DNA from: Alphaproteobacteria bacterium
GTDB taxonomy: Bacteria; Pseudomonadota; Alphaproteobacteria; Micavibrionales; Micavibrionaceae
Direction: 5' to 3'
Assembly (NCBI GenBank): GCA_028282385.1
Contig: JANQIB010000026.1
Span: forward strand, 1-35,667
Length of the DNA: 35,667 nt
Shown: positions 24,589 to 34,207 of the stretch, in pieces
Layout: every line of letters begins with the position of its first letter
Position numbering within the stretch: the stretch's first letter is position 1
Translations under genes and position numbers: made by a program
Notes under the pieces: model-generated
Database searches by the model: none
The model's input: only the letters and a program-made list of their open reading frames with translations
Told to the model about the DNA's origin: nothing

Positions 24589-25116
24589 ATGATAAGCAGA
24601 CGTTCATTTATCGGGTTTTTAGGTGGGTTTTCGGCTCTCGCGGTCAGCAAAGCTGCTTTTGCTTATGATATTGGTGAGTTGCTTGGCCGGAAGAAATCGG
24701 AGCGTGAGATGAAGGATTTCCCTTTTAAATTAACAGATGCGGAATGGCGTGAGCGCCTGACGCCTGAACAATACCGGATTATGCGCGCAGAAGGGACGGA
24801 GCCGACTTGCTCCTCACCACTGGACAAGGAAAAACGCGCCGGGCTGTATCATTGCGCGGGCTGCGGTCAGAAACTCTTTTCCAATAACAATAAATTTGAA
24901 AGCGGCACGGGCTGGCCGTCTTTCTGGCAGCCTCTTACACCCGAGGCAATTGGCACGTCCACGGATTACAAAATCGGTGTGGCGCGTACAGAAGTGCATT
25001 GTTCCAATTGCGGCTCCCATCTTGGCCATGTGTTTGAGGATGGACCGCCGCCCACAGGCCTGCGTTACTGCATTAACGGTGTGGCTCTGAAATTTTTCCC
25101 GGATCAGGCATCCTGA
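24589..25116 (+). CDS. msrB: Peptide methionine-(R)-S-oxide reductase with Tat signal
   Basis: Reduces the R-epimer of methionine sulfoxide in proteins. The N-terminus MISRRSFIGFLGGFSALAVS is a twin-arginine signal peptide (SRRSFIG), so the enzyme should be exported folded. The MsrB domain (about 45-172) has two zinc CxxC pairs (C89/C92 and C138/C141), the conserved SGTGWPSFW, and the catalytic C161 in RYCING; C74 is placed to be the resolving cysteine. A second enzyme, MsrA, with its own export signal is encoded at 33581-34207. Its 3' end overlaps by 13 bases a small convergent reading frame. Confidence 0.94.
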   Translation: MISRRSFIGFLGGFSALAVSKAAFAYDIGELLGRKKSEREMKDFPFKLTDAEWRERLTPEQYRIMRAEGTEPTCSSPLDKEKRAGLYHCAGCGQKLFSNNNKFESGTGWPSFWQPLTPEAIGTSTDYKIGVARTEVHCSNCGSHLGHVFEDGPPPTGLRYCINGVALKFFPDQAS

Positions 25117-25353: not shown

Positions 25354-25587
25354 ATGAGTTATAAAAAAGCACGAAAAACAATGGATTTTTTGGCGGACCG
25401 TATGAAAGCCGTACGCGAGGCCGATGATTTATCTCTTGATAATATTTCGCAAATTACAGGCCTGAGTAAATCAACTTTGAGTGAAATGGAAAATAAAAAA
25501 TCCAGTCCTGAATTGATAACTTGTTTACGTATTTGTTATACGCTCGATATAAAACTCTCTGATCTTCTGAAGGAAATCGGGGAGTAA
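25354..25587 (+). CDS. XRE-family helix-turn-helix regulator
   Basis: A 77-residue DNA-binding protein made almost wholly of one HTH_3 domain (about 12-72). The helix-turn-helix is visible in LSLDNISQITGLSKSTLSEM, followed by ENKKSSPELITCLRICYTLD, the usual third to fifth helices. No ligand or dimerisation domain is present. Such proteins are repressors of small operons, phage regulators or antitoxins. Here it is divergent from a 56-residue frame across a palindrome that is probably its operator. No toxin family was recognised, so an antitoxin role is only a possibility. Confidence 0.85.
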   Translation: MSYKKARKTMDFLADRMKAVREADDLSLDNISQITGLSKSTLSEMENKKSSPELITCLRICYTLDIKLSDLLKEIGE

Positions 25588-25593
25588 TTTTCA

Positions 25594-25723
25594 CCCCCTC
25601 ACCCAAGTTTCGGTAAGCCCCTAGGTCAGGTCCGGGGCAACCTCAACTATCCCTCTCCCCCTTATAAGGGGGAGAGGGTTGTGTAGTCTTGGCCGAAGGC
25701 CTAGACAGAGCTGGGTGAGGGGG
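25594..25723. repeat. CCCTCACCCA / TGGGTGAGGG palindromic element, copy A
   Basis: A 130-base element bounded by CCCCCTCACCCA and TGGGTGAGGGGG, with a strong central hairpin CCCTCTCCCCC TTATAA GGGGGAGAGGG (25651-25678). Two relatives sit at 33395-33468 and 33499-33576. This type of GC-rich nested palindrome is a common intergenic repeat in proteobacteria. It fills the spacer between the XRE gene and the sdhC promoter and could end transcription from upstream. Confidence 0.8.
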
Positions 25724-25770: not shown

Positions 25771-26160
25771 ATGACAAGCGATTCAAAGCGTCCGACCTCT
25801 CCGCATTTGCAGGTTTACAGGCTTCCCATGACGGCCCGGATGTCAATTTCCCACCGGATTAGTGGTGTCCTTTTAATGGCCGGTTCGGTTGTGTTTGCCT
25901 TGTGGTTGATTACGGCGGCATTTCGGCCTGCATACTTTGATATGATGATGGCGCTGGTGAATACCAAGATTGGTACGTTGGCCATGTTCGGTTTTTCTTT
26001 CCTGCTTTACTACCATATGTGTAATGGAATCCGTCACATGTTCTGGGATATGGGTTTTCTGTTTAAACTGAAAAATGCGGCGATTGCGAACTGGGTTGTT
26101 TTATTGTCTGCGGCCGGTTTGACTTTTGTGACATGGAAATGCGTTTGTGAGTATATGTGA
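25771..26160 (+). CDS. sdhC: Succinate dehydrogenase cytochrome b556 subunit
   Basis: Membrane anchor of respiratory complex II, binding heme b and quinone. The 129-residue protein begins with the conserved RPTSPHLQVYRLPMTARMSI followed by SHRISG, then three membrane helices (about 30-50, 64-86, 104-126). H82 in YYHMCNGIRHMFWD is the expected heme ligand. The start lies just after a promoter with no Shine-Dalgarno sequence, so the transcript may be leaderless. The stop codon is 8 bases before the sdhD ATG. Confidence 0.95.
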   Translation: MTSDSKRPTSPHLQVYRLPMTARMSISHRISGVLLMAGSVVFALWLITAAFRPAYFDMMMALVNTKIGTLAMFGFSFLLYYHMCNGIRHMFWDMGFLFKLKNAAIANWVVLLSAAGLTFVTWKCVCEYM

Positions 26161-26168
26161 GATTGATA

Positions 26169-26561
26169 ATGGGCTGTCCGAAGAAACAAAAAATCGAAAG
26201 TGATCTCGCAAAAGCCAAAGGGCTTGGTTCCGCTCATCATGGAGCGGAGCACTGGATGGCCCAGCGCGTAACAGCCATTGCCAATATTCCGCTGGTGATC
26301 TGGTTTGTCTATTCGGTGATGGCGATGAAAGGTGCGAGCCACGCAGAGTTTACCGCCTACATGGCTGAGCCCTATAATGCCTTTGCGGCTATTTTATTAA
26401 TTATATCAGTGTTTTACCATGCTGTGCTCGGTGCGCAGGTTGTGGTTGAAGATTATATTTCCTGCAAATGTTTCAAGATGATGAAACTGATTGGGATGAA
26501 ACTGTTTTTCACCGCGCTGGCCGTGGCCTGCATTTTTAGTATTTTGAAGATAGCTTTATAA
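26169..26561 (+). CDS. sdhD: Succinate dehydrogenase membrane anchor subunit
   Basis: Second membrane anchor of complex II. From the ATG at 26169 the product is 130 residues: a basic N-terminus, the family segment [20 protein letters not shown], and three membrane helices with [15 protein letters not shown] in the second helix (family His and Asp-Tyr near the quinone site). A GTG four codons upstream overlaps the end of sdhC and is an alternative start, but the ATG has a GAG at suitable distance. The stop TAA shares its last base with the sdhA ATG, indicating translational coupling. Confidence 0.93.
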
Positions 26562-28351
26562 TGACAGAAAATTACGAAATCATTGATCACGAATATGACG
26601 TTGTTGTTGTTGGCGCCGGTGGCGCTGGGCTTCGCGCGGGGTTTGGCTGCGCAGAAAAAGGCTTGCGGACTGCGTTAATTTCCAAGGTTTTTCCAACGCG
26701 CTCCCATACGGTGGCGGCGCAGGGCGGGATTTCTGCCGCGCTCGGCAATATGGGCGAAGATGACTGGCGCTTTCATTTTTACGATACGATTAAAGGGTCC
26801 GATTGGCTTGGTGATCAGGACGCGATTGAATATATGTGCCGCGAGGCAATCCCCGCGATTTACGAACTCGAACATTATGGTGTGCCGTTTTCCCGCACGG
26901 CGGAAGGCAAGATTTACCAGCGCGCCTTTGGCGGGATGACAACCCATTACGGCAAGGGCACGGCGCAGCGCACCTGCGCAGCGGCAGACCGGACGGGTCA
27001 TGCAATTTTGCATACGCTCTACACACAGGCACTGAAGAATCACGCCGAGTTTTTTATCGAATATTTTGCGCTCGACCTGATTATGAATGATGAAGGGGAG
27101 TGTCTTGGGGTGATGGCCTGGAATCTTGATGATGGAACCATTCACCGTTTCCGGGCGCACCAGGTGATTTTGGCTACGGGCGGCTATGGCCGCGCCTATT
27201 TCTCCTGCACGTCGGCGCATACTTGCACAGGCGATGGCAATGCGATGGTGCAGCGCGCAGGGTTACCGCTGCAGGATATGGAATTCGTGCAGTTCCACCC
27301 GACCGGGATTTACGGCGCTGGCTGTCTGATTACGGAAGGCGTACGCGGGGAAGGTGGTTATCTGACCAATAGCGAAGGTGAGCGCTTTATGGAACGCTAT
27401 GCACCAAGTGCAAAAGACCTTGCATCTCGTGATGTTGTCTCCCGCTCCATGACAATTGAGGTTCGCGAAGGGCGCGGCGTCGGGGAACGAAATGATCATA
27501 TCCATCTGAATTTGATGCATCTGGATCCGGACATTATTCATCAGCGTTTGCCGGGCATTGCGGAAAGCGCGCGGATTTTTGCCGGCGTGGATGTCACCAA
27601 GGAACCGATCCCGGTTCTACCCACCGTACATTATAATATGGGCGGCATACCAACCAATTTCCGCACCGAAGTCTTAAATCCACAGCCCGATGATCCGAAC
27701 CGGATCGTACCGGGCCTGATGGCGATTGGTGAGGCGGCTTGTGTGTCTGTGCATGGAGCAAACCGTCTGGGCTCGAACTCCTTGCTTGATCTTGTAGTGT
27801 TTGGCCGGGCGGCGGCAATTCGTGCGGCAGAAACAGTCGCGCCAGGTGCGCCGCATAAACCGATGTGCGGTGATGATGGCACAAAAGCGCTGGAGCGTTT
27901 AGACCACTTTAGAAATGCGAAAGGTAGCACACGCACGGCAGATCTGCGGGATCAGATGCAGCGCACGATGCAGGATCATGCTGCCGTCTTCCGCACCGGG
28001 GATACCCTTCAGGAAGGCTGCGACAAGATTGCCAAAATTTTCGATGGCAAAGCAGACCTGTCAATCGAAGACCGCTCTCTTATTTTCAATACCGATCTTG
28101 TTGAAACACTCGAACTCGATAATCTTCTTGGCCAAGCGGTTGTGACTTTGGAATCAGGTGTGAACCGAACCGAATCCCGCGGCGCCCATGCCCGTGAAGA
28201 TTGCGCCGACCGGGATGATGAAAACTGGATGAAGCACACGGTGACCTGGATTGATGAAAAGGGCAAAACCAAAATCGATTACCGCCCTGTCATCCTGCAG
28301 ACACTGACCGACGAGGTCGAGCCTGTTCCGCCAAAAGCGCGGGTTTACTAG
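26561..28351 (+). CDS. sdhA: Succinate dehydrogenase flavoprotein subunit
   Basis: Oxidises succinate to fumarate; carries covalently bound FAD. The 596 residues show the FAD-binding [16 protein letters not shown], the flavin-linked histidine in [11 protein letters not shown] (H49), the substrate region [20 protein letters not shown], the FAD/active-site segment [18 protein letters not shown], and the C-terminal [10 protein letters not shown] domain. Length is normal. The gene overlaps sdhD by one base. The iron-sulfur subunit sdhB does not follow directly: two unrelated genes (28390-29513) intervene, an unusual arrangement for this operon. Confidence 0.98.
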
Positions 28352-28377
28352 CCCTTTTTCTTTTTCCCTAACGGGCG

Positions 28378-28389: not shown

Positions 28390-28890
28390 ATGACTTCCAT
28401 GCTGTTTTTTAAGGGAAGCGGTACAACACCGGCGAAGGCGATTATCCGCGCAGGACGTGAATGCGTTGAATTGCTGCAGAATAATCCGTCTTTATTAATT
28501 GAGCTGGTAGATCTTGTGAATGAGGGAACACATTGGGAGGCTCATATTCGTGTGATGGCTCTCGAAGCTGTTACCGGCGAAGAGGAGTCTCAGGCCCCCC
28601 CCACAAAAGATAAAAAACCTAAAAACCCTGAACATAGCATCTCAGGTGATCCAAATGCCTGGCGCCCGCCGGGTATGGAACATGATCCTTCCAGCCTGAA
28701 ACATGTTGAGAAGAAGTTTGATAAGGCGTCATATGCCGGTTATGTTCCCGATGTTCCTGTCCGTGATATTGTTCTTCTGCAGGAGCAGGGCTTATCACAT
28801 GATCAAATTGCAGCGATGCGGCGCCTCTACATGTCCCGCGCAATCCAGCGGCGCAGCGCTCCCGCCCCAAAAGTCGAAAACAATAAGTAA
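28390..28890 (+). CDS. Hypothetical protein inserted between sdhA and sdhB
   Basis: Not recognised. The 166-residue soluble product has an N-terminal helical part of about 60 residues (AGRECVELLQNNPSLLIELVDLVN), a linker rich in Pro, Lys and Asp (about 63-95), and a C-terminal helical region (about 115-150: VRDIVLLQEQGLSHDQIAAMR) that could form a small helix-turn-helix-like bundle. There is no signal peptide or membrane segment. A run of eight C residues (28595-28602) lies in the linker. A TATAAT box lies 7 bases upstream of the ATG. It is followed by a 161-base spacer and then the LOV gene. The coding nature is supported by its length and position; the function is unknown. Confidence 0.7.
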   Translation: MTSMLFFKGSGTTPAKAIIRAGRECVELLQNNPSLLIELVDLVNEGTHWEAHIRVMALEAVTGEEESQAPPTKDKKPKNPEHSISGDPNAWRPPGMEHDPSSLKHVEKKFDKASYAGYVPDVPVRDIVLLQEQGLSHDQIAAMRRLYMSRAIQRRSAPAPKVENNK

Positions 28891-28909
28891 GCTTACAGTG
28901 ACTATAGGG

Positions 28910-28934
28910 TCAAAATATATTGAGTATATTTTGA
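28910..28934. promoter_or_regulatory. AT-rich perfect inverted repeat upstream of the LOV gene
   Basis: TCAAAATATA and TATATTTTGA are perfect 10-base arms separated by TTGAG. There is no T-run after it, so it looks more like an operator than a terminator. It lies 20 bases after the stop of the unknown gene and 117 bases before the LOV start. Confidence 0.5.
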
Positions 28935-29051
28935 TTCCCAAAAGAGAATTCGTCTTCCGGGTATTTTGTTGATAGGTTACATTGTTTAAACGGTACTACA
29001 ATAGTACTCTATTCTTGTTGTTCATATTATTTTAAAAGCGGGGATTTAGAT

Positions 29052-29513
29052 ATGACAAACCAATTGGTGTTTTGGGATGATTTGGTTATTCGGGCAAATC
29101 AAAAGGACTGGAAAAATTTTGATTCCGCAAAAGAAAGCATCACGATTGCGGATATGCGGCAGGAAGATGCCCCGCTTATCTATGTGAATAAAGGGTTTGA
29201 GCGCATTACAGGCTATAGCCGGGCAGAGACCCTTGGAAGAAATTGTCGTTTTTTGCAAGGCATTGAAACAGATAGGAATGAAGTTAACCAAATGCGCACA
29301 GCTATTCAAAATGGTGAAAAATGTATCGTTGAATTTATTAATTATAAAAAGAACGGTGATATTTTTTGGAACCGCTTATCTCTCACGCCAATTATGGGGC
29401 TGGATAAAAAACCGGCCTTTTATATTGGCCTGCAAAATGATATTACTGATATGAAGTATATTGAACATCAAATATCACGGCATTTACGTGATGCAATCAG
29501 TAAACTGGGATAG
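29052..29513 (+). CDS. Short LOV (flavin blue-light photoreceptor) protein
   Basis: A single PAS/LOV domain of 153 residues with little else. The flavin-adduct motif GRNCRFLQG is intact (photoactive C65), and the other flavin contacts are in place: N97 in FINYKKNG, N107 in IFWNRLSL, and Q128 in IGLQNDIT. PLIYVNKGFERITGYSR is the standard first half of LOV. Short N- and C-terminal helices flank it (the last, KYIEHQISRHLRDAI, could be a dimerising J-alpha extension). There is no kinase, cyclase or DNA-binding output, so it belongs with short LOV proteins such as those described in Pseudomonas and Dinoroseobacter. A GGGGA ribosome-binding site lies about 9 bases upstream. It stands between sdhA and sdhB, 27 bases before the latter. 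Confidence 0.93.
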   Translation: MTNQLVFWDDLVIRANQKDWKNFDSAKESITIADMRQEDAPLIYVNKGFERITGYSRAETLGRNCRFLQGIETDRNEVNQMRTAIQNGEKCIVEFINYKKNGDIFWNRLSLTPIMGLDKKPAFYIGLQNDITDMKYIEHQISRHLRDAISKLG

Positions 29514-29540: not shown

Positions 29541-30350
29541 ATGGCTGAATTTACACTTCCTAAAAATTCAAAAATTAAAAAAGGTAAAAAGGTCAACGCG
29601 GCCGATGGCGCGAAGCGGACAAAAACCTTCAAGGTTTACCGATATGATCCGGATTTGAAAAACGAGAAAGGCGAACCTGAAAATCCCCGCCTGGATGAAT
29701 ATACGATTGATCTGGATAAATGCGGTCCGATGGTTCTCGATGCGCTGATCCATATTAAAAATGATGTTGATAGTACGCTGACATTCCGCCGGTCCTGCCG
29801 GGAAGGGATTTGCGGATCCTGTGCGATGAATATTGACGGGCGTAATACGCTGGCCTGTACCAAAGCCATTGGCGAGGTGAGCGGCGCGGTTAAGATTACG
29901 CCTTTGCCACATATGCCGGTTGTCAAAGATCTTGTCCCTGATCTGAACCATGTTTATGCGCAATATGCGGCGATTGAGCCCTGGATGAAAACAGACAGCG
30001 CGCCGCCGACAAAAGAACGCCTTCAGAGCGCGGATGATGCCAATCTCCTGAATGGAGAAGACGGGCATGGTCCGGCCGGGTGTATTCTCTGTTTTTGCTG
30101 TTCAACTTCCTGTCCAAGTTATTGGTGGAATGCGGAGCGGTTTATGGGACCGGCAATCTTGCTGCAAGCCTATCGCTGGATTGTGGATAGCCGTGATGAG
30201 GCAACCGGAGAAAGGCTGGATCAGCTCGAAGACCCGTTCAGGTTGTATCGCTGTCACACAATTATGAACTGTACAAACGCTTGTCCAAAGGGGCTAAACC
30301 CTGCAAAAGCCATCGCCGAGATTAAAAAACTTATGGTTGCCCGCAAATAA
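29541..30350 (+). CDS. sdhB: Succinate dehydrogenase iron-sulfur subunit
   Basis: Passes electrons from FAD to quinone through three iron-sulfur clusters. In 269 residues: a lysine-rich N-terminal extension usual in alphaproteobacteria, the [2Fe-2S] ligands C86, C91, C94 and C106, the [4Fe-4S] ligands C181, C184, C187 and C248, and the [3Fe-4S] ligands C191, C238 and C244 ([33 protein letters not shown]). All ligands are present. It follows the LOV gene by 27 bases, with poor ribosome-binding bases in between, rather than following sdhA. It ends in a small perfect palindrome. Confidence 0.98.
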
Positions 30351-33394: not shown

Positions 33395-33468
33395 CTCCCT
33401 CTCCCTTCAGGGAGAGGGCAACGAGGCTTACCTTTTTAGAAAAAGGTATAGCCGAGTGGGTGAGGGTG
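33395..33468. repeat. TCCCTCTCCC / TGGGTGAGGG palindromic element, copy B
   Basis: The element begins TCCCTCTCCCTTCAGGGAGA and ends TGGGTGAGGGTGT. It faces copy C in inverted orientation. The inner part includes its own small hairpin (CCTTTTTAGAAAAAGG). Confidence 0.8.
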
Positions 33469-33498: not shown

Positions 33499-33576
33499 CA
33501 CCCTCACCCAGCTTCGCCTAAGTTCAGCCTGACGGCCTCACTAAGGCTGCGCAACCCTCTCCCTGAAGGGAGAGGG
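33499..33576. repeat. CCCTCACCCA / TCTCCCTGAAGGGAGA palindromic element, copy C
   Basis: Begins ACACCCTCACCCAGCTTCGC and ends CCCTCTCCCTGAAGGGAGAG. The reverse complement aligns end to end with copy B at both termini but differs in the middle. With B it makes a 180-base inverted pair between nadA and msrA, whose coding regions diverge in order but not in strand. Confidence 0.8.
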
Positions 33577-33580
33577 AACT

Positions 33581-34207
33581 TTAATTCTTCTGCTGTTTGA
33601 ACAGCACACGGATATGCGGCTTGCCGTTGGTCACTTCATACTTCTCATAATATTGCTGGTGATAATCCTCGCCCTCCCAGAAGGTGACAAGGGGTTCCAG
33701 CGTTGTGACAATCGGCTTATCCCATGCGCCGGACGCATTTGCGGCCTCAATGGCCTCTTGCGCGCGCTGTTTTTCTTCTGCACTGCGGTAAAAAATGACC
33801 GAGCGGTATTGCGGACCGAGATCGACTCCCTGACCGTTCAATTGGGTCGGGTCATGGGCTTTCAGCAGGAAGTACTCCAGTAACTCACGCGCGGAAATCT
33901 GATCCGGGTTGTAATAAACCTGCACGACTTCGGCATGGCCGGTTTTACCGGTTGTGATGTCGTGATATGTTGGGTTATCCAGCTCTCCGCCCGCATAGCC
34001 GACCCGGGTATAAACTACGCCTTCTAGGGACCGGTATTCACTTTCGGTGCACCAGAAACACCCGCCGCCAAGGGTCAGGAAGGGCAGGTTTTCAGGTTTT
34101 TCAGATGTTATTGTCGATGCCACGGGCATGCCTTTCGCAAAAGGGGTATAGGGAAAAATAAACAGCGCCGCGATTACCAAAACCGGCAGAAGTGCAAAAA
34201 ACCGCAT
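33581..34207 (-). CDS. msrA: Peptide methionine-(S)-S-oxide reductase with export signal
   Basis: Reduces the S-epimer of methionine sulfoxide. The 208-residue protein starts with a hydrophobic signal sequence (about 2-22) that would export it or anchor it in the membrane. The MsrA fold follows, with catalytic C50 in GGGCFWCTES, GYAGGELDNPTYHDI, TGHAEVVQV, FLLKAHDPTQLNGQG and DLGPQYRSVIFY. C53 is the only other cysteine, so recycling probably needs it or an external reductant. AGGAGGA 4 bases before the ATG is a near-perfect ribosome-binding site. It probably works with the Tat-exported MsrB at 24589-25116. Confidence 0.94.
   Translation of the reverse strand: MRFFALLPVLVIAALFIFPYTPFAKGMPVASTITSEKPENLPFLTLGGGCFWCTESEYRSLEGVVYTRVGYAGGELDNPTYHDITTGKTGHAEVVQVYYNPDQISARELLEYFLLKAHDPTQLNGQGVDLGPQYRSVIFYRSAEEKQRAQEAIEAANASGAWDKPIVTTLEPLVTFWEGEDYHQQYYEKYEVTNGKPHIRVLFKQQKN

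Follow-up and report, generated by a model that had tools for sequence, protein, structure and literature searches.

In the window analyzed here, a 35,667-nucleotide stretch from the draft genome of a Micavibrionaceae alphaproteobacterium (1.77 Mb in 159 contigs), a gene for a short LOV-type protein lies between sdhA and sdhB. We consider it fairly probable that this gene was gained recently at an insertion hotspot, that sdhB is co-transcribed with it, that its product works through an unlinked partner without regulating complex II, and that the neighbouring gene for a 166-residue protein is a separate matter. The gene order is sdhC-sdhD-sdhA-(166-aa gene)-(LOV)-sdhB, all on the forward strand, with 161 bp between the 166-aa gene and the LOV gene. 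A preliminary description of this DNA had placed these two genes between sdhA and sdhB; the open reading frames have the coordinates that it gave, and Pfam confirms the four sdh genes. The features of the locus are as follows.

25771-26160, forward strand: sdhC (open reading frame and Pfam)
26157-26561, forward strand: sdhD (open reading frame and Pfam)
26561-28351, forward strand: sdhA, the 5' flank of the junction (Pfam FAD_binding_2 and Succ_DH_flav_C)
28341-28354, forward strand: terminator-like hairpin and T-run overlapping the stop codon of sdhA (consensus match only)
28390-28890, forward strand: gene for the 166-aa protein (open reading frame; conserved in five genomes)
28892-28921, forward strand: sigma-70-like match CTTACA-18-TATATT (9/12), candidate LOV-sdhB promoter (scan not above chance)
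28910-28934, no strand assigned: perfect, operator-like palindrome TCAAAATATA-TTGAG-TATATTTTGA, overlapping the TATATT -10-like hexamer
29052-29513, forward strand: LOV gene, 153 aa (open reading frame; PAS_9; YtvA alignment)
29541-30350, forward strand: sdhB, starting 27 bp past the LOV gene (open reading frame and Pfam)

Several other elements were observed around the sdh region. A small Cro/C1-type HTH gene, absent from the open-reading-frame list at 80 aa, is located just 5' of sdhC (25354-25587), and the sdh region lies between an MsrB-type gene (24589-25116), whose start is twin-arginine-like, and an MsrA-type gene (33581-34207). A REP-like dispersed palindromic repeat, CCCTCTCCC...GGGAGAGGG, occurs at 25651-25678, 33397-33418, and 33555-33576.

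The best Pfam domain of the LOV protein is PAS_9 (E 7.8e-21; 74.7 bits against a cut-off of 27), and the whole core aligns with YtvA structures (2pr5, E 3.2e-32). The photoactive Cys65 (in GRNCRFLQG) and the flavin contacts Asn97, Asn107, and Gln128 are all present where the preliminary description had located them, in agreement with the YtvA alignment. The core carrying these residues is preceded by an N-terminal cap (residues ~1-23) and followed by a C-terminal tail (~133-153); only PAS-type matches of note were found, and the protein has no effector domain. Against the YtvA family model NF052652 it scores 153.4 bits, below the cut-off of 250, and covers positions 6-129 of 243. Judging by its core, its Cys motif, and the absence of an effector, the gene product is a short LOV-type protein, probably an ordinary blue-light sensor. 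In LOV domains, blue light induces a Cys-flavin adduct and the flanking helices of the dimer shift; short LOV proteins need partners to pass this signal on. By the same scheme, the LOV protein of the window would bind FMN, Cys65 would form the adduct in blue light, and the adduct would displace the flanking helices of the LOV dimer. The most likely mode of signalling is that the protein binds a partner in a light-dependent manner, like PmSB-LOV with its LitR-type regulator; the gene for this partner most likely lies elsewhere, unlinked to LOV.

The position of the LOV gene has to be read against the variability of the junction in which it lies. The sdhCDAB operon had been described as usually compact, which proved untrue for the Micavibrio order: among the 86 genomes of the order in which both sdhA and sdhB could be measured, the sdhA-sdhB gap exceeds 300 bp in 59 and reaches 7.3 kb, and it is 100 bp or less in 26. 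A further 11 genomes have at least 5.4 kb 5' of sdhB without sdhA, and in two more the two genes are distant on one contig. As controls, gaps above 200 bp were found in 0 of 46 cases between sdhC and sdhD and in 9 of 51 between sdhD and sdhA. The cargo of the junction varies both between and within genera and includes GGDEF genes (12 genomes), aldo/keto reductase genes (11 genomes) and, judged from sequence alone, ABC transporter and oxygenase genes. The sdhA-sdhB junction of the Micavibrio order is thus a gene-insertion hotspot. Since its cargo is so varied, the LOV gene appears as one item among many, and its position at such a site is weak evidence for a role in complex II. In the same set of loci, the GGDEF (diguanylate cyclase) genes are small and recur at the junction in several genera (e.g. 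L082, L017, and L078), and the aldo/keto reductase genes lie on the opposite strand.

No LOV gene was found at the sdhA-sdhB junction in any other genome examined, and none of the other LOV loci that were fetched lies beside sdh. In 104 genomes of the family, no non-self LOV match at E ≤1e-18 exceeds 45% identity, and all of these matches fall within reading frames of at least 468 aa; most of them are PAS domains with GKTPR-type motifs and no photoactive Cys. Such PAS domains occur family-wide (L036, L037, and L117-L123), with GKTPR/GKNPK-type sequences replacing GxNCRF in many of them. The best matches elsewhere are about 50% identical, phage and plasmid records gave only distant LOV matches (below 60% identity), and the best match in GTDB contigs is 42% identical, in a set from which the source genome and its near relatives were possibly excluded. 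In a tree, the window sequence stands apart from the LOV/PAS domains found elsewhere in the family, although this placement is weakly supported. The GC content of the LOV gene is 38.5% (GC3 37%), compared with 54.4% for sdhA and 49.0% for sdhB. Because the DUF1761 gene 3' of sdhB has a GC content of 40.8%, the AT-richness of the LOV gene is by itself no proof of transfer. On the basis of these comparisons, which include one other genome of the same genus (G001), the LOV gene was probably acquired recently by horizontal transfer.

Occurrence at this junction in a single genome, at a site where genes are gained and lost rapidly and vary even within genera, would also be expected if the LOV gene were a neutral passenger lacking a working photocycle or partner and due for loss. 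The frame is intact and every photochemical residue is kept, which argues against such decay, and we regard this explanation as unlikely.

The LOV gene stands where related genomes often have a promoter-like element. In many genomes with separated sdhA and sdhB, a promoter-like site, TTCACA-N17-TAT(C/T)CT, begins about 50-110 bp 5' of sdhB. A total of 25 of 95 upstream regions score at least 11/12 for this site, compared with 0.3 expected from shuffles, and the spacing is nearly always 17. It is missing where sdhA lies within about 60 bp of sdhB. The sister genome G001 (L078) carries a perfect copy, and another example is found in G124 (L126). On the forward strand of the window near the junction, no match to this promoter was detected within three mismatches, and the LOV gene occupies its place. 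For this reason, sdhB is probably transcribed together with LOV from a promoter 5' of the LOV gene. In the preferred reading, LOV would have been inserted at the recurrent site, displacing the sdhB promoter, with the transcript now starting upstream. No structured RNA was detected in the 28891-29060 leader (z -0.52). Upstream of both genes, the evidence for the hairpin over the sdhA stop codon is weak, since the window contains five terminator-like sites against 1.3 expected.

The sigma-70-like candidate and the palindrome over its -10-like hexamer bear on a second alternative, in which light sensed by LOV regulates the LOV-sdhB transcript itself, by way of an unlinked DNA-binding partner at the palindrome, and any light response of sdhB is a by-product of promoter replacement. 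The arms of the palindrome are 10 bp long, a length reached in 4 of 2,000 dinucleotide shuffles of the intergenic stretch. The absence of sdhB's own promoter from the window fits this scheme, and a short LOV protein acting via an adjacently encoded DNA-binding regulator has been described (PMC9758184). However, the promoter match does not exceed chance, and the palindrome might be the site of any regulator, or of no regulator at all; we therefore hold such self-control to be improbable, to about the same degree as a neutral passenger.

The 166-aa gene has a different history from that of LOV. The search for it was seeded with two sequences of a single genus, location playing no part in the selection, and covered first 104 genomes of the family and then 142 of the order. 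Five of the 142 genomes contain the gene, namely the source of the window (G000), G001 from the same genus, G058, G124, and G080. Its place is between sdhA and sdhB in every one of them, and no other location was found in the 142 genomes. It adjoins sdhB in these genomes, with the exception of the window, where LOV intervenes. In G001 it is immediately 5' of sdhB and there is no LOV gene, and in G080 sdhA is followed after 3 bp by the 166-aa gene, which overlaps sdhB in TAATG to form a gap-free operon. Comparison with the G001 sister sequence gave a pN of 0.22 and a pS of 0.80 (saturated), indicating purifying selection, and the gene changes faster than sdhA and sdhB. Owing to its conservation in five genomes and this selection against its sister, the open reading frame is a real gene. 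In accordance with the preliminary description, which had called the protein unrecognised, it matches no Pfam, NCBIfam, or PADLOC family. No relatives of either this gene or LOV were found in viral contigs.

The preliminary description had treated the two genes as a pair, and this did not survive the comparison, as LOV is absent from the junction in four of the five genomes that carry the 166-aa gene. It had also named a random placement of the two genes in related genomes as a refutation; this applies to LOV, which shows no association with sdh there, and not to the 166-aa gene, which is tied to sdh in five of five. The 166-aa gene would thus be the older, fast-evolving, and sdh-linked one, with a plausible accessory role for SdhB or complex II. 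In the best reading of these data, it is this gene rather than LOV that offers the better lead for complex II. In a stronger version, the fast-evolving 166-aa protein with its dodecin-like fold would be a new factor for the assembly or regulation of complex II in the Micavibrio order, and LOV, added to the same transcript in this one lineage, would let complex II, or the amount of SdhB available to it, respond to blue light. This version seems to us the least credible of the explanations considered.

Further examination of the 166-aa protein was directed at its fold. Residues 1-60 are predicted to form a beta-alpha-beta-beta unit of dodecin-like or SHS2 type; the ~100 residues that follow make up a variable tail, in which a GDPNAWRPPGMEHD-type stretch is conserved. 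An AlphaFold model of residues 1-69 from a seven-sequence alignment shows strand-helix-strand-strand at a mean pLDDT of 86.6; a model of the whole protein from two sequences (pLDDT 40) was set aside. Dodecins rank at the top and make up most of the 20 best rows of VIA-align for the N-terminal domain, with Z of 5.3-5.9, a range (below 8) that may reflect just a common arrangement. Foldseek gave E 0.2, and hhalign of the five close members against dodecins gave a borderline P of 0.007. An hhalign P of 8.8e-6 was not counted, as it needed added members that had been hand-picked by eye for a dodecin-like pattern. The N-terminal domain is thus predicted to adopt a dodecin-like or SHS2-like fold at the level of a middling match, and a likeness of this grade would imply neither membership in the dodecin family nor flavin binding.

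Wider dodecin-like genes were found at the sdhA-sdhB junction and also elsewhere in the family. This wider set was seeded from junction genes and has further members at unrelated loci, so the linkage claim uses the five close members only. The proteins with a dodecin-like domain at unrelated loci (L252-L267) have a VEGFSDNSA-type start, and two members of the wider set that were scanned (G077 and G015) match no Pfam family. In G001, a second, longer dodecin-like gene lies just 5' of the homologue of the 166-aa gene (L078:2925-3605).

Several dodecins bind flavin, and the predicted resemblance is one of the points that would favour a partnership of LOV and the 166-aa protein in a module that responds to light or flavin and tunes complex II. 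The two genes are adjacent, LOV lies 27 bp from sdhB and is probably co-transcribed with it, and the 166-aa gene is linked to sdh in every genome that has it. Nevertheless, LOV is missing from four of these five loci, most relatives have unrelated genes inserted at the junction, the 161 bp between the two genes contain a palindrome and a promoter-like site, and other fetched LOV loci are never near sdh. It seems very unlikely that such a module exists, and the same variable junction and unlinked LOV loci undercut the link between LOV and complex II that had been proposed from position. The intact LOV frame so close to sdhB also fits a selected link, and a functional LOV-sdhB link, if true, would be a light input into complex II. 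To our knowledge, no earlier light input into complex II is known. In the titles and abstracts of the open literature on LOV, sdhB, and blue light, no such link is described, and we consider it unlikely. The lasting points are the junction hotspot, the conserved promoter that sdhB frequently has, and a conserved small protein whose gene is tied to the sdh locus.

Compared with known systems, the window locus preserves the C-D-A-B order of compact sdhCDAB operons; unlike in these operons, A and B are apart in most genomes of the Micavibrio order, with sdhB frequently under a promoter of its own. Dodecins (Pfam PF07311; 1mog, 2vkf, and 2yiz) have the same strand-helix-strand-strand arrangement as that predicted for residues 1-60 of the 166-aa protein. 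In contrast to them, this protein carries a tail of about 100 residues and lacks a PF07311 match at the thresholds tried (none above 22.5 bits for the protein, and no match in G000 at E 1). The closest solved relative of the LOV protein is the LOV domain of YtvA (2pr5 and 2mwg; NF052652), whose motif and core it matches end to end. YtvA has a C-terminal STAS domain, whereas the window protein ends after its tail. It is in this respect similar to the short LOV proteins PmSB-LOV and DsLOV, which likewise consist of a single LOV domain plus flanking extensions, lack an effector, conserve the Cys and flavin contacts, and require a partner. DsLOV of the alphaproteobacterium Dinoroseobacter shibae is a regulatory short LOV that affects photopigment synthesis (PMC4335406). 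In Pseudomonas mendocina, light-dependent binding of PmSB-LOV to the LitR regulator, encoded beside it, relieves repression (PMC9758184). PmSB-LOV thus sits in a conserved cluster with its partner, whereas the LOV gene of the window has sdhB and the 166-aa gene as neighbours, in an arrangement that is not conserved.
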